In this document: piece by piece, positions 24,596 through 32,401 of the stretch
Layout of the letters: each line of letters opens with the position of its first letter
How positions within the stretch are numbered: position 1 is the first letter of the stretch
Assembly (NCBI GenBank): GCA_022448265.1
Contig: JAKVCC010000018.1
Coordinates: forward strand, 32,060 to 96,059
Direction of reading: 5' to 3'
Source of the DNA: Pirellulales bacterium
Lineage (GTDB): Bacteria > Planctomycetota > Planctomycetia > Pirellulales > Lacipirellulaceae
DNA: 64,000 nt
Made by a program: the position numbers and the translations under genes
Notes under the pieces: generated by a model
What the model was told of the DNA's origin: nothing
Database searches by the model: none
What the model saw: only the letters and a program-made list of their open reading frames with translations

Positions 24596-25570
24596 TTAAC
24601 GGGACGAGTCGGCTATTGTTTCGACTTGCGCGCCGCAATTGTCGGGAGCTGTGAGTAGGATTTTTGCTTGGGAAAACTCTTTTAGTCCAGCCAGTCGGCC
24701 GGCCAGTTCTGCAGCCTCACGCTCCGCCTGGCAAAACGCAAATAGGGTGGGACCCCAGGAGGACTGGCCAACGCCCGCGACGCCCAAGCGGCGCAGCCGA
24801 TCAATGCAGCGGGCGATTGCGGGCGAGGCATAGGGCCCTCCCTGAATTTGGCGGAAGCAATTGCCAGCCAGGTGGCCATATTGAAATATCGAACGGGCGA
24901 ACGCGTCGAAATCAGCCCGTTCGGCGGCGGGTAATATTTGCGTTTCCGCGATCTGCTGGAGCTCGGCACTCACCTCAGCCGGAACGGGTGTGAGTTGGTC
25001 GAAGGTCTCCGCCTCGCTATCGCCATGCAAGCCAGGTGGGCTATGCGGTAAAATCAGCACCAGACGCCAGGAGTCAGGTACCGCCAGCCGTCGGGACAGG
25101 TGCCCCAGTGGCTCGCCTGCGCGGTAGCCCGTTTCCCAGATCAGTCCGCCGCGCTCAAATCCGTAGCTGCCTACGGCACTGCGCTTCCCGCGGTTAGTAG
25201 CGGAGACAATCGCCTCGAGACTCACCGGGCCGCTTCCGCTGAGGGTATGCATACCGAGGGCCAACGCCAACGCAAGCTGTGTGCCGCTTCCAAAGCCAGA
25301 GTGGGGTAAGGGCGATTCACAAATCTGAATGCGCAATCCGTTGCCTTGGGGTCTGCGCCATTGTTCTTGTATTTTCCGGGCGGTCGCCAGAGCCTGATCG
25401 GCCATGGGGCCCGCGGCCTGCCATTGGTCGCTCTCTTGGATTTCGACGACCAGCCGTGGCTCCTTAATCATCATTCCCAAACCGCCAAAACTGCGGCCTT
25501 GTGCTTGTGCAAAACGCAACAGCCCAAAATGGAGCCGACTGGGAGTCGTGATTCGCAGTACCTCGTGCAT
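24596..25570 (-). CDS. beta-ribofuranosylaminobenzene 5'-phosphate synthase
   Basis: 324 residues. Belongs to the GHMP superfamily branch that condenses para-aminobenzoate with phosphoribosyl diphosphate, the first committed step to tetrahydromethanopterin. The start RITTPSRLHFGLL is a family marker, and the GHMP loop PLPHSGFGSGTQ is at residues 88-98. Last gene of the operon, 42 bases after the DUF447 gene. The presence of pabA and pabB upstream, which make its substrate, strengthens the call. Tetrahydromethanopterin-linked C1 genes are known in planctomycetes. Confidence 0.9.
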   Translation of the reverse strand: MHEVLRITTPSRLHFGLLRFAQAQGRSFGGLGMMIKEPRLVVEIQESDQWQAAGPMADQALATARKIQEQWRRPQGNGLRIQICESPLPHSGFGSGTQLALALALGMHTLSGSGPVSLEAIVSATNRGKRSAVGSYGFERGGLIWETGYRAGEPLGHLSRRLAVPDSWRLVLILPHSPPGLHGDSEAETFDQLTPVPAEVSAELQQIAETQILPAAERADFDAFARSIFQYGHLAGNCFRQIQGGPYASPAIARCIDRLRRLGVAGVGQSSWGPTLFAFCQAEREAAELAGRLAGLKEFSQAKILLTAPDNCGAQVETIADSSR

Positions 25571-25612
25571 GGTTAGCGGGGCCCCTGGCCAGACAATAAA
25601 CGTTTGTGAAAT

Positions 25613-26227
25613 TTATGTCTTGTCCGTGGCAATCTGGGATCGGATGTGTTCGCACAAAAAATCAAATGTTTCACGCTCGACGTGGCTGGCTGTTTTTTTT
25701 ACGGGGGATTCTAAGCGGTTGAGTTCGGCCAGAATATCCTCGGCTTGCAGCAATTGGATGCGGGTTGCCAGAATAGCCGCTTCCAGCACCGCATGTTGGG
25801 CTCGATTGTAGCCCAAGAAATCGCGCAGCCGGCCTTGGTCCACACATTTTGCCCGAATGTGGGTCCGCTCCGAGTCATCGTCGAGCGCCGTGACCTGCAG
25901 CGCATACCAGCGGCATGCCGCAGTGAGTATTTGCCCTTCGATCCGGCCGGCGGATCGCATGCTGGGTAATGGGCTGGGTGTTCCTAGGGCCGCCTGGGCA
26001 AACAGGCGGACATCGTCGGTAATGTGGAACACTGCCTGGCCGGTCCGTTTTAAGTTTTGATAGGTTGTGGATGTGCGAAAAGGTCGCAGTACGAAATAGC
26101 TAAACTGTGGATCAATAATCGGTCCCATGGGCGAAATATTTGTGGAGCGATCCCTGTTGATCGTGGTGATAATTCCTTCCACGATGCGGCCATTGGTTCC
26201 AAGTTGTGGTAGGTCGGGGTCGGGCAT
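25613..26227 (-). CDS. DUF447 domain protein
   Basis: 204 residues. The N-terminal IVEGIITTINRD..TNISPMGPII and the FRTSTTYQNL..GQAVFHITDDVRLFAQAALG pattern fit the DUF447 family, a split-barrel flavin-binding-like fold found in archaea and in bacteria with methanopterin-type C1 cofactors. The C-terminal half is helical and Glu/Arg rich. The exact reaction is not known to me. It sits between pabA (61 bases) and RFAP synthase (42 bases), so a step in the same cofactor route is likely. Confidence 0.87.
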   Translation of the reverse strand: MPDPDLPQLGTNGRIVEGIITTINRDRSTNISPMGPIIDPQFSYFVLRPFRTSTTYQNLKRTGQAVFHITDDVRLFAQAALGTPSPLPSMRSAGRIEGQILTAACRWYALQVTALDDDSERTHIRAKCVDQGRLRDFLGYNRAQHAVLEAAILATRIQLLQAEDILAELNRLESPVKKTASHVERETFDFLCEHIRSQIATDKT

Positions 26228-26288
26228 AGTCTTGTTTGCCGGAGGCTTCTAATGCGAAAAACGCGATGCGAGCAAGCGTTGCCCCTCG

Positions 26289-26954
26289 TTAAAATGTGAC
26301 CGGACGCTGGAGTGCTGGCGGCTCGATCTTGGGCGCCGTCCGGTATTCGTCCGCCATAAGCGGGTCAACGGCTTGGGTACAATCGCATCCCGCCAACGTC
26401 AGAAAATTTCGGAGCAGCGGATAGCCATATTCGGTCAGTACGGCTTCGGGATGAAACTGGAGGCCATAAACGGGCAGGGTTGCATGTTCCAGCGCCATCA
26501 CAGTACCATCCGCGCTTTTCGCCGTCACAGTGAGCGACGTGGGAACCGAAGGGGGCTCGACCACCAGCGAGTGATACCGGCACACCTGTAATGGATTGGG
26601 GACTCCTTGGAATAGCCTCGTTTCCTGGTGTGTAATCATGGAGGTCCGGCCGTGCATTGGCGCCGCTGCGCGGCCAATTTTAGCTCCGAGAGCGGCGGCG
26701 ATCGCTTGATGTCCCAGGCAGACCCCCAGCATGGGCAGCTCAGTGTGTAACTCCCGCGCCACTTCGAGCGAGCAGCCGGCGGCCTCCGGCCTGCAGGGCC
26801 CTGGCGAAAGGACAATTGCGTCCGCGCCCGTGCGCCGAATGGTGGCCACATCGATTGCATCATTCCGTACCACTTCAGTCTCCTGCCCCAACCGCTGGAA
26901 GTAGCGGGCCAGATTGTGAACGAAGCTGTCGTAGTTATCGATCAGTAAAATCAT
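26289..26954 (-). CDS. pabA: aminodeoxychorismate synthase glutaminase component
   Basis: 221 residues from an ATG that overlaps the pabB stop as ATGA, a sign of translational coupling. It is a class I glutamine amidotransferase: MILLIDNYDSFVHNLARYF at the start, the nucleophile Cys in LGVCLGHQAIAAALG, and the His/Glu pair in QFHPEAVLTEYG. It supplies ammonia from glutamine to PabB. The family also serves anthranilate synthase (TrpG), but the partner here is a PabB type. The last 25 residues are an unremarkable extension. Confidence 0.93.
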   Translation of the reverse strand: MILLIDNYDSFVHNLARYFQRLGQETEVVRNDAIDVATIRRTGADAIVLSPGPCRPEAAGCSLEVARELHTELPMLGVCLGHQAIAAALGAKIGRAAAPMHGRTSMITHQETRLFQGVPNPLQVCRYHSLVVEPPSVPTSLTVTAKSADGTVMALEHATLPVYGLQFHPEAVLTEYGYPLLRNFLTLAGCDCTQAVDPLMADEYRTAPKIEPPALQRPVTF

Positions 26955-28366
26955 AAAGCATCCAATATGCCCCGCGCCTTGTGCCAAGTCTCGCGGTACT
27001 CATCGCCCACTTGCGACTGGGCGACGATTCCGCCGCCAACGGGCAACTGCCACCAGCCCCTGCCGGCGGTGACCGTTCTTATCAGAATACTACTATCCAT
27101 ATGCCCGTCAAAGCCTATGTAGGCGAGCGAGCCGCAATAGGCACCGCGAGTGGTGGGTTCGAGTTCGGCGATAATCTCCATTGCTCGGATCTTGGGTGCC
27201 CCGGTGATCGAACCGCCTGGAAAGCACGCCCGTAGCAAATCAAAGACATTGAATTGCGGGCGTAGCCGGCCGCGGACGGTCGAAACGAGATGCTTAACAA
27301 ATGCGTAATCTTCCAGCTGGAAAAGCTGCTCGACGCAAACGCTCTCAGCCGTACACACGCGCGAAAGATCGTTGCGCAACAGGTCGACAATCATAACGTT
27401 TTCGGCACGGTCTTTTTCGCTAAGCTGCAGTTCATCTCCCGCAAAAAGGTCTGCTTCGGCTGAGTCGAGACGCCCACGCGTACCCTTGATCGGCCGGGTC
27501 TCGACCTGACCATCACGCAAAGTAAGAAAACACTCGGGCGAAGTGCTGCAGATCTGCCAGTCGCCCAGGTTGAAATAGCCTGCGTAAGGTGCTGGATTGT
27601 TCGTTCGCAGTTTGAGATACAGCTCAGCGGATGGGGAGCGGGCAGGGCAGAGCAGTCGTTGGGCCAGATTGACCTGGAAAATGTCGCCAGCGTGAATGTA
27701 TTCCACGGCCCGTTCGATCATCTCTCGATAGGAGGCGGCTGGAAAGTTACTGGTGACTCCCTCCAGGCCGACATCAAATTGCGGTGCCAGTTCGGTCACT
27801 GGTACGTGCTGGTGGCTGTCCAGACGCGGTCGATTGAGGGGGCCCTGTAGCCAGTCACGCATTTGCGCCAGCCTCGCCCGCGCCCGTTTTCGTCGCGCGC
27901 GCGCCGCCATTTCCGGAAAACCTTGAGACAGAATCCAGGACCGCTTCTGGTAGTGGTCGAAGGCGACGACCACATCGTACAACCCGGCCGCGAGTGTGGG
28001 CATCGCCAGATCGTTGATGCGAGCGGATGGAATATTTTCCAGGCCGCGCGCAAGCTCGTAGCCGAACAGTCCTGCGGCACCTCCTTGGAAAGGCGGCAGA
28101 CCTTGGCGCGACTCTGCCGCAAAGAGACGGTGGGCGGCCTCCAAGTCTGCTAGCGCGTCCTGGTCGGGTGTGCTGCACTGGATCCATTGGAATGGATCGG
28201 CGGCAATAAACGAATAGCGTCCAAGCAATCCGGCGCGACTGGCGCTATCAAAAAACACGACATGTGGTAAATGTGCCAGGCGGCCAAAGACGTCAGTGGC
28301 CGAGAGGTCTGCCGGAAGAGCTTCGATCAACGGCCACTCAGCCGGCTGGATATGGTCTTCATTCAT
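26951..28366 (-). CDS. pabB: aminodeoxychorismate synthase component I
   Basis: 471 residues from the ATG at 28366, which overlaps the DUF6513 stop by 8 bases; the frame is open further upstream but in the neighbour's coding sequence. It converts chorismate and ammonia to 4-amino-4-deoxychorismate, the precursor of pABA. PIKGTRGR at residues 292-299 has the Lys typical of aminodeoxychorismate synthases where anthranilate synthases have Ala (PIAGTR). FQVNLAQRL and GGSITGAPKIRAMEII are the other chorismate-binding motifs. No aminodeoxychorismate lyase (PabC) domain is attached. Confidence 0.94.
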   Translation of the reverse strand: MNEDHIQPAEWPLIEALPADLSATDVFGRLAHLPHVVFFDSASRAGLLGRYSFIAADPFQWIQCSTPDQDALADLEAAHRLFAAESRQGLPPFQGGAAGLFGYELARGLENIPSARINDLAMPTLAAGLYDVVVAFDHYQKRSWILSQGFPEMAARARRKRARARLAQMRDWLQGPLNRPRLDSHQHVPVTELAPQFDVGLEGVTSNFPAASYREMIERAVEYIHAGDIFQVNLAQRLLCPARSPSAELYLKLRTNNPAPYAGYFNLGDWQICSTSPECFLTLRDGQVETRPIKGTRGRLDSAEADLFAGDELQLSEKDRAENVMIVDLLRNDLSRVCTAESVCVEQLFQLEDYAFVKHLVSTVRGRLRPQFNVFDLLRACFPGGSITGAPKIRAMEIIAELEPTTRGAYCGSLAYIGFDGHMDSSILIRTVTAGRGWWQLPVGGGIVAQSQVGDEYRETWHKARGILDAL

Positions 28367-29786
28367 CGGGGGCGGTGCCCCTGCGCTGGGATATAAGGCG
28401 ATGTCGCGATTCCGGCCGCGTGGCCAATCCCCAGTCGAGCGATTCGTCCTGCTGGTAGGTCTTGCCAAGCGTCAACGCGGTTCGCGCCTTGCACATTTCA
28501 TAGCCCAGGTAAAATGCGTGGCCCTCATCAAGATTGTCTGGCAGGCCGCCGTCGGGACCACTGCTCTGGAGCTTGTCCATAACGACGAACGGATCAGCGT
28601 GGTGTAGATGCAGTTGGCGACTCACGAGGTGCACTTCGCCATCTGCTGCAAAGATCCTGTAGTTGTGGTCGCGGATTTCTGCTGCCAAGCGCGCGAGCTG
28701 TTTCTGGTCGGGTGCCACCAGATCCTCATCACGCAGCATGAGTAGCCGAGGCTCCAGGTGTTTGGGCAATACACGGTTGTGGACCGCGTGATACATAAGC
28801 CTCCGCGCCAGGTCGCACTCGCGAACGCTGCTGCGGGTCCAGTTGATGACTTGCGTTGTCAATATGCTGTGGATGCGAAGCTCCTGACAAAACCCCAACA
28901 GCATTGCGTTGGTGCCTGCGGAGTCGACGTCGGTCAGTTCGGTCAGATTACCGATACCCATCATTAGTTCTGCGTCGGGATAGCGGTGCCGCACGTCGAG
29001 GTACCGGGCCAAACTGGCAGCAAAGCCAAAGGCAATTGGTTCCAGGACGGGATCGATTCGCATCGGGACATTGGCTTGGGCTAGTCGTTCGATCGTGGTG
29101 TCTAGTTCGGCCAGAGACACTGGGTCGTCAGGAATCGCCACCACCTCAACACCCCAGTCGACGGCCGCCTCGCGATTCGAGCTATTGACGCTGAGTACCA
29201 ATTCCGCGCCCGCCCGGATTGCTGGCTCGATTTCACGCGGATTCAAGCTGTCGATTGACACGCGATGCCCGTCGTCGCGCAAAGCACGGACCACGCTTTC
29301 CACACCCGTCCAGGCTGGGCCCGGCTCGCAGCCCACATCAATCCAATCCGCTCCGCTGGAGGCGAGTGCCTGGGCGGTTGCTAGTATTTCGGTCAGGGAA
29401 AGGCGAGGGCAGTGGTTGATTTCGGCAATGATCTCAACATCGTAGTCCCCGTAGTCGTCGGGGATTGGCTCGCGGGAGAAGAATCCTGCCAGTTGCCGCA
29501 GATCGCGAGGCCCCACCTCCACCGGTGCGCAGACCACGGCCGACAGGGGTGCCAGATCACCATCACAGTAGCCCGGTATAATCACGCGCGATGTGTTTTC
29601 CGGCGCGCGAATGTGTTTGGCAATCCAGGCCGGGCTCATCAATGCCGCTACCGTAATCGGAAGAACATCGATCGAATATTGAAATCCTACGTCCGCCGCC
29701 AGGGAGGGTAATGCCTGTTGCAGGGCAGGGGCCGCTAGCCGGCCGGTCACAAAATGGAGATGTTCCGCAGGCACGGGATGGGTCAC
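28359..29786 (-). CDS. DUF6513, dihydropteroate synthase-like protein
   Basis: 475 residues from a GTG overlapping the SDR stop (GTGA). The frame upstream belongs to the SDR gene and is not used. The N-terminal 110 residues are specific to this family (LHFVTGRLAAPALQQAL). Residues 115-360 form a TIM barrel like dihydropteroate synthase, with GADWIDVGCEPGP and VSIDSLNPREIEPAIRAGAELVLSV. The C-terminal part is unique. Such proteins occur in methanopterin-type C1 gene clusters of bacteria and archaea; DHPS-like chemistry joining a pterin and an aryl amine is an inference. Second gene of the operon. Confidence 0.88.
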   Translation of the reverse strand: MTHPVPAEHLHFVTGRLAAPALQQALPSLAADVGFQYSIDVLPITVAALMSPAWIAKHIRAPENTSRVIIPGYCDGDLAPLSAVVCAPVEVGPRDLRQLAGFFSREPIPDDYGDYDVEIIAEINHCPRLSLTEILATAQALASSGADWIDVGCEPGPAWTGVESVVRALRDDGHRVSIDSLNPREIEPAIRAGAELVLSVNSSNREAAVDWGVEVVAIPDDPVSLAELDTTIERLAQANVPMRIDPVLEPIAFGFAASLARYLDVRHRYPDAELMMGIGNLTELTDVDSAGTNAMLLGFCQELRIHSILTTQVINWTRSSVRECDLARRLMYHAVHNRVLPKHLEPRLLMLRDEDLVAPDQKQLARLAAEIRDHNYRIFAADGEVHLVSRQLHLHHADPFVVMDKLQSSGPDGGLPDNLDEGHAFYLGYEMCKARTALTLGKTYQQDESLDWGLATRPESRHRLISQRRGTAPDE

Positions 29787-30547
29787 CTTGACGAGCCGCC
29801 GTTGACGCAAAAAATTTGGCCCGTGATAAATGATGCCCGTGGTGAGGCTAGATAACAGGCCGCCTGGGCCACATCTTCCGGTGTTCCCCAGCGCGCGACA
29901 AGCGACTCTTGGACAGCTCGCCCTTGCCATTCGGCCGAAGCCGTTTCTCCCCAGGCAGTCTTGATCCAGCCGGGCGCGAGGCAATTAACCCGCACCTCTG
30001 GCGCTAAAGATTTTGCTAGGCTACTAGAAAACGCCATGATGGCCCCTTTTATGGCGGCAAACATCTGGCCACTATCACCGGCCATACCCGTGGTCGCTTG
30101 ATCCCAACCCATGTTGAGGAGGACTCCCTGGCCTCGCTGCTTCATCTGCGCTCCGACCGCTCGCGACAGATGCAGCGTTGCCGCCACGTCCACTTCCCAA
30201 AGACGCTTTAGCTTCTCTGCAAATGATCCCTGCGACGCAGCGCCGGTCAGTACGTCTGCGCCAGCATTGTTGATCCAAATGTCGATGGGTGCGATCTGCC
30301 AGGCCTGCTCAACCAATCGGGTACGTTCCTCCGCCAGGGAGAGATCAGCGAGGAGCATTCGTGCTTCGCAGGCATTCTGGGAAAGTGTTTCAGTTAGCCG
30401 AGCGGCGGCTGCGCGTTTTTGGAAACCGTGTACGATTAAATTGGCACCCGCCAATGCCAGCTCTTTGGCAATTGCCTCTCCAATGCCGCTGGTGCTACCG
30501 GTTACCAGTGCCCACCGACCGTCAAGTTCAAGTGTACGGTTTGCCAT
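29783..30547 (-). CDS. SDR family oxidoreductase with altered active site
   Basis: 254 residues from the ATG at 30547 (MANRTLELDGRWALVTG); upstream codons are unlikely. It is a classical Rossmann SDR with the cofactor loop TGSTSGIG (16-23), NNAG (93-96) and a C-terminal NGGSSR. The catalytic YxxxK is replaced by FAAIK: Phe163 stands where the proton-donating Tyr belongs, with Lys167 kept. The preceding Ser is also absent (NMGWDQATTG). First gene of the six-gene operon and translationally coupled to DUF6513. Its place suggests pterin reduction, but the changed residues make ordinary alcohol/ketone chemistry doubtful. Confidence 0.9.
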   Translation of the reverse strand: MANRTLELDGRWALVTGSTSGIGEAIAKELALAGANLIVHGFQKRAAAARLTETLSQNACEARMLLADLSLAEERTRLVEQAWQIAPIDIWINNAGADVLTGAASQGSFAEKLKRLWEVDVAATLHLSRAVGAQMKQRGQGVLLNMGWDQATTGMAGDSGQMFAAIKGAIMAFSSSLAKSLAPEVRVNCLAPGWIKTAWGETASAEWQGRAVQESLVARWGTPEDVAQAACYLASPRASFITGQIFCVNGGSSR

Positions 30548-30736
30548 GTAATAATCTTCACAACAAGAAAGAGTGGTTATGATTGCCTTTGTAGACCGCC
30601 TTCCGCCCCGCCGCAAGTTGTCTGTACCAAGTGTCCGAGGTGGTGTCGAATAAGTCCAGCTTGCCATAAAATGAGCCGCAATCTAGGATTAGCGGCCTTA
30701 GATCGATGTCAGGTGTTGGCAAGCAGGTGTCCTTCC

Positions 30737-32401
30737 ATGTCCGAATCCTCGTCCGAGACCTCTTCGCCACGGGGAGCTGCCACGCACAACTCGGCACCCA
30801 AGCACGTGGGTTGGCTGGTGGGATGGATTGCCGCCTTGGCAGCGATGGCGATTTTGCTTGCCCGAGGCAATTTGGATCCTGGCATTGGCACCATCGCATT
30901 CAACGCAGCGCTCATCTTGAGTGTCATCAGTTTTGCTGTTTGGGCGGCCCTGTGGAGCGGCCGGATCGTGCGGACTAGGTGTCTGATCTCGGCGGCATCG
31001 CTTGTTTTGCTGGCCGCCTTTTATGCTCAGCTAATGCCATTTCAACTGATTAATGATGGAGATGCGGGCATTGTTGGTGTGAGATGGCGCTGGAATCAGC
31101 CCGACAAACTTCTGGCAATGCAAAAAAGCGAAACTGATTTACAACTCGATTGGCGCGAGAAGGTACACGACTACCCGCGTTTTCTGGGTAGCGGCTATTG
31201 GGCCGAAGTGCCTGGCGTGGCACTGGAGGTCGACTGGAAGACGAGCCCACCACGGGAGGTGTGGCGGACGAAGATCGGCGCCGGCTGGTCTGCCTTTTCA
31301 ATTGTCGGCAGCTATGCGGTCACTCAGGAGCAGCGGGACGAACAAGAGCTGGTGACATGTTACGAACTGTCCACCGGCAAGATCGTCTGGACGCATGCTG
31401 ATCCGGTTCGTTGGGACCCAAGGGGTGGCGGGAGCTTGGGTTATGTCGGACCTCGGGCCACGCCGACCATTCACCAGCGCCGCGTATATGCACTGGGAGC
31501 TACGGGAATACTGAATTGCATCGACGGTCCGAGTGGAAAACTCCGCTGGTCGCACGACACACTCCGTAAGCACTCTGCCGATAACGTTGTATGGGGGAAA
31601 GCTTGTTCGCCGCTCATTGTTGACGATTTGGTTGTCGTTAGTGTTGGCGGTCGCAATAACCAGTCGCTAGTGGCTTACGACATGGACTCGGGCGACGTGG
31701 TGTGGGCGGCGGGAAGCTACCCGTCATCGTATGCCTCTCCCGTGTTGGCAGAGTTTGCCGGCCAGGCACAGGTGATTTCGGTGAACGCTGGCTTTGTCAC
31801 CGCCCACAAAGTCGAGGATGGCGAGCTGCTCTGGGAATACGAGTGGCCTAGCGATAGTGGTTCAGACGCGGCTACGTCACAGCCGGTCCCTCTGGAGGGA
31901 GACCGGCTGTTTCTGTCTAAGGGTTATGGTCTCGGTTCGGCCTTGGTGCAGGTGACGTGCAGCGAGACGGGTGTCTGGGAAACCACCCCCCTTTGGAAAG
32001 GACGCCAGTATGGTCAACTTCCCGTCATGAAAACAAAAATGGGGAACGTCGTCATTCGCGATGGATATGTTTTTGGCCTGGATAATGTCAGTCTGCAGTG
32101 CATTGAGTTGGAGTCGGGCAAGCGGCTCTGGAAGAAACGGCGCAATCCAACGTTTGGGCATGGACAGATTATGTTGATTGGCGACGTCATTCTAGCGTTA
32201 ACAGAATTTGGCGAAGTTGTGCTTGTGGAGGCGTCGCCCGACAAATACCGCGAGTTGGCCAGCATACGCGTCTTTTCGGACGACCAGGTTACCTGGAACA
32301 ATCCGGCATTTGCGCCCCCGTATCTACTGGTGCGAAATGCTGAGGACGCAGCCTGCTATGAGCTGCCGCTCAAAGAGCCCATAGCGGGGTCCGTCGATTG
32401 A
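30737..32401 (+). CDS. membrane-anchored PQQ-like beta-propeller protein
   Basis: 554 residues from the ATG at 30737. The N-terminal 110 residues hold about three membrane helices (VGWLVGWIAALAAMAILLA, IAFNAALILSVISFAVW, LISAASLVLLAAFYAQL). The rest is a WD/PQQ-type eight-bladed-like propeller with blade ends such as GKIVWTHAD, GKLRWSHDT, GDVVWAAGS, GELLWEYEW and GKRLWKKR. Such planctomycete proteins are annotated outer-membrane-assembly BamB-like or PQQ-dependent, but nothing shows an enzyme active site or PQQ ligands. It is divergent from the cofactor operon with a 189-base gap. Confidence 0.88.
   Translation: MSESSSETSSPRGAATHNSAPKHVGWLVGWIAALAAMAILLARGNLDPGIGTIAFNAALILSVISFAVWAALWSGRIVRTRCLISAASLVLLAAFYAQLMPFQLINDGDAGIVGVRWRWNQPDKLLAMQKSETDLQLDWREKVHDYPRFLGSGYWAEVPGVALEVDWKTSPPREVWRTKIGAGWSAFSIVGSYAVTQEQRDEQELVTCYELSTGKIVWTHADPVRWDPRGGGSLGYVGPRATPTIHQRRVYALGATGILNCIDGPSGKLRWSHDTLRKHSADNVVWGKACSPLIVDDLVVVSVGGRNNQSLVAYDMDSGDVVWAAGSYPSSYASPVLAEFAGQAQVISVNAGFVTAHKVEDGELLWEYEWPSDSGSDAATSQPVPLEGDRLFLSKGYGLGSALVQVTCSETGVWETTPLWKGRQYGQLPVMKTKMGNVVIRDGYVFGLDNVSLQCIELESGKRLWKKRRNPTFGHGQIMLIGDVILALTEFGEVVLVEASPDKYRELASIRVFSDDQVTWNNPAFAPPYLLVRNAEDAACYELPLKEPIAGSVD

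Follow-up and report, generated by a model that had tools for sequence, protein, structure and literature searches.

A short-chain dehydrogenase without the catalytic tyrosine is a candidate dihydromethanopterin reductase of planctomycetes

The 64,000-nucleotide window analysed here is part of contig C10 of a Pirellulales genome (G000; 3.64 Mb in 87 contigs, 97.3% complete). Six of its genes, encoding a short-chain dehydrogenase/reductase (SDR), a DUF6513 protein, PabB, PabA, a DUF447 protein and ribofuranosylaminobenzene phosphate (RFAP) synthase, form one minus-strand operon (30547-24596), and our results support its belonging to the pathway of a tetrahydromethanopterin (H4MPT)-type cofactor, a vitamin-like carrier of one-carbon units familiar chiefly from methane microbes. 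An earlier note on this DNA took the layout with pabAB, the genes for para-aminobenzoate (pABA) synthesis, as the point of interest and passed over the SDR, which we judge to be the more informative member. We propose, at roughly even confidence, that the SDR catalyses the step from dihydro- to tetrahydromethanopterin by a hydride transfer like that of dihydrofolate reductase (DHFR). A shade more tentatively, we suggest that an SDR lineage of planctomycetes became a third bacterial family of dihydromethanopterin reductases, unrelated to the other two, and that it discarded the tyrosine since water protonates its sole step.

Results

Distribution of the SDR across planctomycetes

We determined how closely the SDR follows H4MPT genes in a phylum sample of 294 genomes, 56 of which have DUF6513. 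The SDR profile was run on 55 of these (G000 excluded) and on a non-random draw of 20 of the 238 DUF6513-negative genomes. The SDR was found in 53 of the 55 DUF6513-positive genomes and in two of the 20 negative ones. When the same 75 genomes were divided by the presence of Fae, it was found in 54/55 Fae-positive and 1/20 Fae-negative genomes (Fisher p 1.4e-15, uncorrected for relatedness). Since the SDR is not adjacent to DUF6513 in 24 of the 53 genomes having both, its association with fae does not rest on synteny. Searching plasmids for the SDR at E 1e-30 gave no match.

Within the family, we compared 40 genomes including G000, of which 28 had a completeness of at least 90% and a contamination of at most 5% (hereafter good genomes). 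Fae was present in 33 of the 40 genomes, Mch in 34, and DUF6513 and the SDR in 27 each. SDR matches fell in exactly the same 27 genomes as DUF6513, with one match per genome past E 1e-60 and all of them at 3e-116 or better. Among the good genomes, Fae, Mch, DUF6513 and the SDR were each present in 23, and all four were absent from the same five (G004, G006, G019, G025 and G030). As DUF6513 and the SDR are neighbours, both vanish together when a contig is missing, and the family counts by themselves do not amount to independent evidence. DHFR was found in all 28 good genomes, including the five without fae, DUF6513 and the SDR, which shows that folate is independent of the SDR. A folate role like that of FolM was therefore set aside.

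H4MPT genes are already known from planctomycetes, and RFAP synthase is known as well. The methanopterin link drawn by the earlier note, which would have fallen had the genome held no other methanopterin genes, is supported in G000, where fae, mtd and mch are all present. There are two Fae genes, at C2:142239 (237 bits) and C45:78410 (195 bits). On contig C2, fae is directly followed by a dehydrogenase gene with the Mpt_N domain (PF09176). The mch gene adjoins a RimK-type ligase gene for which MptN is the top NCBIfam match, though under the cut-off (212 of 350 bits). With Mtd and Mch present, those roles are already taken. We accordingly set aside the SDR as methylene-H4MPT dehydrogenase, the Mpt_N gene of G000, like that of the three relatives examined, lying about 2 kb or less from fae.

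Two Fae genes of clearly unequal score were also seen in a number of relatives. On contig C56 of G000 (L247:5718-10932, scanned), mch is followed by the RimK/MptN-like ligase, an AMP-binding ligase and a 3-beta-HSD/epimerase gene, and the same gene run was seen by eye in G018 (L255:7720-12452).

Residue pattern and fold of the SDR

The window SDR has PF13561, PF00106 and the TGxxxGIG motif of classical SDRs and departs from their Ser-Tyr-Lys residues. We aligned 95 rows, comprising the window protein and 94 distinct matches of at least 44% identity and at least 225 residues, in which one gene may recur from two collections. Phe163 occupies the Tyr position of YxxxK in 95/95 rows (Tyr in 0/95), and Lys167 is kept in all. 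Trp148, Asp149, Asp98, Asp120, Trp194 and Trp199 are likewise invariant, and the SDR catalytic loop has no conserved Ser. Placing the Trp-Asp pair at the catalytic Ser was abandoned, since HMMER, MAFFT and the strand register read by eye disagree; our claim is thus limited to no Ser being conserved there. The AlphaFold model is of high confidence (pLDDT 93.3) and matches the SDR fold. The best 50 PDB matches listed were FabG-like, hydroxysteroid and other SDRs at 24-32% identity, and the fold search fails to separate SDR subfamilies.

This pattern can be read against PTR1, an SDR in which Lys positions the nicotinamide and Asp and Tyr supply protons to the substrate during the first reduction; the second reduction, from dihydro to tetrahydro, is DHFR-like and takes its proton from water (excerpts of PMC8996148 and PMC1618733). 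Because the second step has water as proton donor, a kept Lys together with Phe for Tyr is what would be expected of an SDR that performs the second step only.

The last step lacks a recognised enzyme

No AfpA/DmrB (TIGR02699) match over the cut-off was found in any of 76 genomes; there was no match in G000 and weak partial matches occurred in 20. This agrees with the portion of PMC5020050 available to us, according to which planctomycete genomes have no recognised Afp and Methylobacterium uses DmrA in its stead. The consulted part of PMC6193120 describes two bacterial reductase lineages, DmrA and AfpA/DmrB, assigns every planctomycete homolog in its tree to the DfrA group, and reports little or no reduction of dihydrosarcinapterin (H2SPT) by DfrA and DfrB. 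The same paper reports a complementation test in which afpA was put into a Methylobacterium extorquens dmrA deletion strain and growth on methanol was examined. Among titles and abstract beginnings, with older planctomycete papers outside the scope, we found no literature naming an SDR as dihydromethanopterin reductase, or naming any such planctomycete enzyme.

Evidence against the assignment and alternative roles

Several observations weigh against a dihydromethanopterin reductase. The SDR scores 124.7 bits under the pteridine reductase model NF006598 (cut-off 288) and lacks the Asp-Tyr-Lys triad. An invariant Asp stands where PTR1 has the pterin-stacking Phe113 (matched by eye) and FolM a Trp, and no pteridine reductase is among the best 50 PDB matches listed. 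Mutants of the PTR1 triad lose much activity, according to the portion of PMC8996148 consulted. Other H4MPT steps are likewise without assigned enzymes. The distribution also has exceptions. A real counter-example is G161, of a distant planctomycete lineage, in which Fae, DUF6513, ftr and mch occur with neither the SDR nor an AfpA match over the cut-off. G293 has neither a Fae nor a DUF6513 match, yet an SDR of this family lies next to its pabB (L225:2932-3753). Finally, DUF6513 and the SDR are missing from eight family genomes, all less than 90% complete, seven of them Fae-positive.

The G293 SDR has changes at several residues that are otherwise nearly fixed. G153 holds a diverged DUF6513 (36% identical to that of the window) without Fae and the SDR. 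The G153 DUF6513 and the G293 SDR look like remnants. G309 has the SDR and a lower-scoring Fae, with no DUF6513 match.

In G161 (L226:181-9302), DUF6513 lies beside a pterin-4a-carbinolamine dehydratase gene and a compact ftr-mch-RimK-CitG-ATP-grasp-hydantoinase island, which also holds a GXGXG (fhcC-type) gene and an amino-acid-kinase-like gene just under the cut-off. There was no obvious Dmr among the ten island proteins scanned; further open reading frames (ORFs) of the contig were just listed.

The main rival to a last-step reductase, which we consider unlikely though ahead of the other alternatives, is that the operon serves H4MPT with the SDR at another step, for example the one that opens the ribofuranosyl ring by reduction and so yields the ribityl side chain. 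Ring opening is a hydride transfer that needs no Tyr acid, and such an enzyme would have the same co-distribution with fae and DUF6513. There is also room for it, as an estimated seven methanopterin proteins were unknown as of 2011 (PMC3087415, in part). However, no H4MPT organism can do without ring opening, and G161 has no SDR. Conversely, last-step reductases are known to be swapped for unrelated families, and planctomycetes are a gap stated in the consulted passages of PMC5020050 and PMC6193120.

Less probable again is an SDR that recycles oxidised H4MPT, in the manner of FolM or dihydropteridine reductase, rather than making it. The SDR fold would suit this role, as would Arg at position 42, shared with FolM, in 59/95 rows (the window SDR has Phe there), and the SDR sometimes lies outside the operon. 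Its presence in 54 of 55 genomes with fae, however, is more in keeping with an essential step than with an aid to recycling, and the Tyr kept by FolM is Phe in every row of the alignment.

Conservation of the operon

The front of the operon is strongly conserved in the family. SDR and DUF6513 match starts lie at most 1.2 kb apart in 27/27 family genomes holding them, and the two genes are same-strand neighbours in 26/26 relatives' loci. pabB follows DUF6513 in 23 of the 26, one of these being partial at a contig end. The three loci without a following pabB include two that stop at a contig end and a rearranged one in G031. The distal half is less conserved: pabA was found in 16 of the 26 loci, DUF447 in 17 and mptG in 16, and some loci end early. 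This layout is more than chance.

We surveyed the order more widely in the best 80 named planctomycete DUF6513 loci by score, family members among them. The SDR lies at most 1.5 kb from DUF6513 in 34 of the 72 loci with more than 900 bases upstream. pabB lies at most 1 kb downstream in 45 of the 71 loci with more than 1500 bases downstream of DUF6513, while seven loci read SDR-DUF6513-DUF447 without an intervening pabB. pabAB is therefore an optional neighbour.

In 26 loci without an adjacent SDR, no recurring replacement reductase was seen beside DUF6513 (crude ORF calling, by eye). A divergent M20-peptidase-like gene often lies beside DUF6513 in such loci (9/26 by eye, with two scanned, e.g. 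L163:7728-8855 and L136:7742-8887).

pabAB is probably shared with folate

The earlier note read pabAB as a dedicated, private pABA supply for H4MPT. Although pabB follows DUF6513 so regularly in relatives, our results do not support this, and we consider it very improbable. G000 (about 3% missing) has two chorismate-binding genes, the operon pabB and a TrpE gene (TIGR00564 584 bits vs cut-off 518), so that the operon pabB is the only one found and a second pabAB is not supported. Exactly two chorismate-binding genes were found in 26 of the 28 good genomes; the exceptions are G005, with an additional short fragment containing a stop, and G031, with a single gene. The operon PabB falls below the NCBIfam cut-offs of TIGR01824 (351.3 vs 408.55) and TIGR00553 (320.3 vs 328.4), and also below that of the trpE model (364.1 vs 517.7 bits). 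The motif RPIKGT is present in the window PabB and in 22/26 relatives' operon loci, pabB being absent or cut in the other four. TrpE-side loci have RPLAGT in 30/30. We take the Lys in PIKGT to mark PabB, where TrpE has Ala.

G000 also has a FolP-like gene, DHFR and ThyA. The Pterin_bind search further matched a frame of 1251 residues on C67, about the size of MetH, and on C36 a gene resembling methyltransferases. With these folate genes and a single pabB, one PabB would feed both folate and H4MPT.

The five fae-less good relatives point the same way. Each keeps two chorismate-binding genes, one with RPIKGT (5/5). In G006, G019, G025 and G030, all of one genus, pabB adjoins pabA, and the pair borders the divergent beta-propeller gene of the pyrroloquinoline quinone (PQQ) type that also flanks the window operon; the SDR, DUF6513, DUF447 and mptG were not found in the 10 kb examined. 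In G004, pabB alone of those genes was found in its 10 kb. With the loss of H4MPT, the stretch between the propeller gene and pabB thus lost its SDR and DUF6513 genes, and pabAB was spared; in the four genomes of one genus the deletion may be one single event. The seven SDR-DUF6513-DUF447 loci that have no pabB in between also argue against a private supply.

In the window, the divergently transcribed PQQ-type propeller gene (30671-32401) adjoins the SDR, and it was found in 21/26 relatives' operon loci. The conservation of this neighbour, too, means that gene order by itself says little. Even so, that the operon genes were joined by lineage synteny alone, with pabAB and the SDR unrelated to H4MPT, is the least credible alternative of all, because the SDR tracks fae phylum-wide even where unlinked, and because four fae-less genomes lack it at a propeller-pabB-pabA locus that is kept in other respects.

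Operon layout and gene names

The coordinates (Table 1) confirm the earlier note's description of six genes joined by overlaps and short gaps, and all six reading frames are open. The SDR and DUF6513 genes share a 4-base GTGA overlap, DUF6513 and pabB an 8-base overlap, and pabB and pabA a 4-base ATGA overlap; gaps of 61 and 42 bases separate pabA from DUF447 and DUF447 from the RFAP synthase gene.

Table 1. The six operon genes, in order of transcription (window positions)
Gene or product	Position	Strand	Length	Features
SDR	30547 (ATG) to stop 29783	minus	254 aa	H4MPT-linked reductase; candidate NADPH-dependent dihydromethanopterin reductase
DUF6513 / dihydropteroate synthase (DHPS)-like	GTG 29786 to 28359	minus	475 aa	PF20123 and PF00809 (Pterin_bind) above cut-off
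pabB, aminodeoxychorismate synthase component I	ATG 28366 to 26951	minus	471 aa	PIKGT motif
pabA, class I glutamine amidotransferase	ATG 26954 to 26289	minus	221 aa	PF00117 and TIGR00566 above cut-off
DUF447 protein	26227 to 25613	minus	204 aa	PF04289 and PF20766 above cut-off
MptG-like RFAP synthase (GHMP family)	25570 to 24596	minus	324 aa	GHMP_kinases_N and GHMP_kinases_C above cut-off

Gene names were taken from Pfam and NCBIfam family scans, in which several strict NCBIfam cut-offs were missed. The names RFAP synthase, PabB and DHPS-like thus rest partly on context, the cut-offs being narrowly or clearly missed. The RFAP synthase-like protein scores 112.7 bits under TIGR00144 (cut-off 113.5) and 137.9 under NF040726 (cut-off 328), with a full-length match; the Methylobacterium RFAP synthase, too, is outside conserved group 1 (PMC6787355, as excerpted). 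The DUF6513 protein, which passes its two Pfam cut-offs, reaches 152.4 bits under TIGR00284 (cut-off 256.65). From its family matches and its co-occurrence with fae, this DHPS-like protein is predicted to couple the pterin to the pABA-riboside, which we consider likely. The pabA product exceeds the TIGR00566 cut-off (203.2 vs 121.05 bits) and, as a PabA/TrpG protein, might supply anthranilate synthase too.

Discussion

The observed gene content, gene order, co-distribution and residue pattern lead us to infer the following route, including its catalytic assignments, the choice of NADPH and the mechanism. PabB and PabA would make aminodeoxychorismate and thence pABA, shared with folate. MptG would join pABA and phosphoribosyl pyrophosphate (PRPP), the DHPS-like DUF6513 protein would join the MptG product to a dihydropterin, and the DUF447 protein presumably acts somewhere in the pathway. 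The SDR would then perform the last reduction, of dihydro- to tetrahydromethanopterin, with NADPH. In this step Lys167 would place the nicotinamide, and Phe163 would fit a proton coming from water, as in DHFR. The finished H4MPT-type carrier would be used by Fae, Mtd and Mch, which are encoded elsewhere in the genome.

Parts of this arrangement resemble known systems. In the H4MPT gene islands of Methylobacterium, RFAP synthase likewise accompanies H4MPT-linked one-carbon genes, and the cluster mixes genes for H4MPT and folate synthesis (PMC2680597, in part). Unlike these islands, the planctomycete operon begins with an SDR, whereas Methylobacterium has DmrA and most other proteobacteria Afp (PMC5020050 and PMC6193120, same excerpts). 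DmrA and AfpA/DmrB catalyse the reaction that we propose for the SDR. As DmrA is DHFR-like and AfpA/DmrB a flavin mononucleotide (FMN) protein (PMC6193120, in part), the SDR would bring a third unrelated fold to it.

Compared with PTR1 and Escherichia coli FolM, as far as the sources consulted describe them, the planctomycete protein shares the SDR fold and the catalytic Lys, and the proposed reaction equals the DHFR-like second step of PTR1. It differs from both in having Phe for Tyr, Asp at the pterin-stacking aromatic position and an invariant Trp-Asp in the Ser loop. The Bacillus subtilis folate operon, known to us from a title cited in PMC8305020 (pab, an amphibolic trpG, a third gene for pABA synthesis and DHPS), similarly sets pABA synthesis beside a DHPS-type gene. 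In the planctomycete operon, by contrast, the DHPS-like gene is DUF6513, the predicted product is H4MPT and a FolP-like gene lies elsewhere.

Planctomycete H4MPT genes figure in debates on the origins of methanogenesis and methylotrophy, yet in these bacteria the enzyme of the last step of cofactor synthesis is not recognised. The SDR is a single gene, also present in cultured strains, with a clear prediction, so that the question is directly testable. If the prediction is true, an SDR without its Tyr that reduces a dihydropterin would represent an SDR converging on DHFR chemistry.

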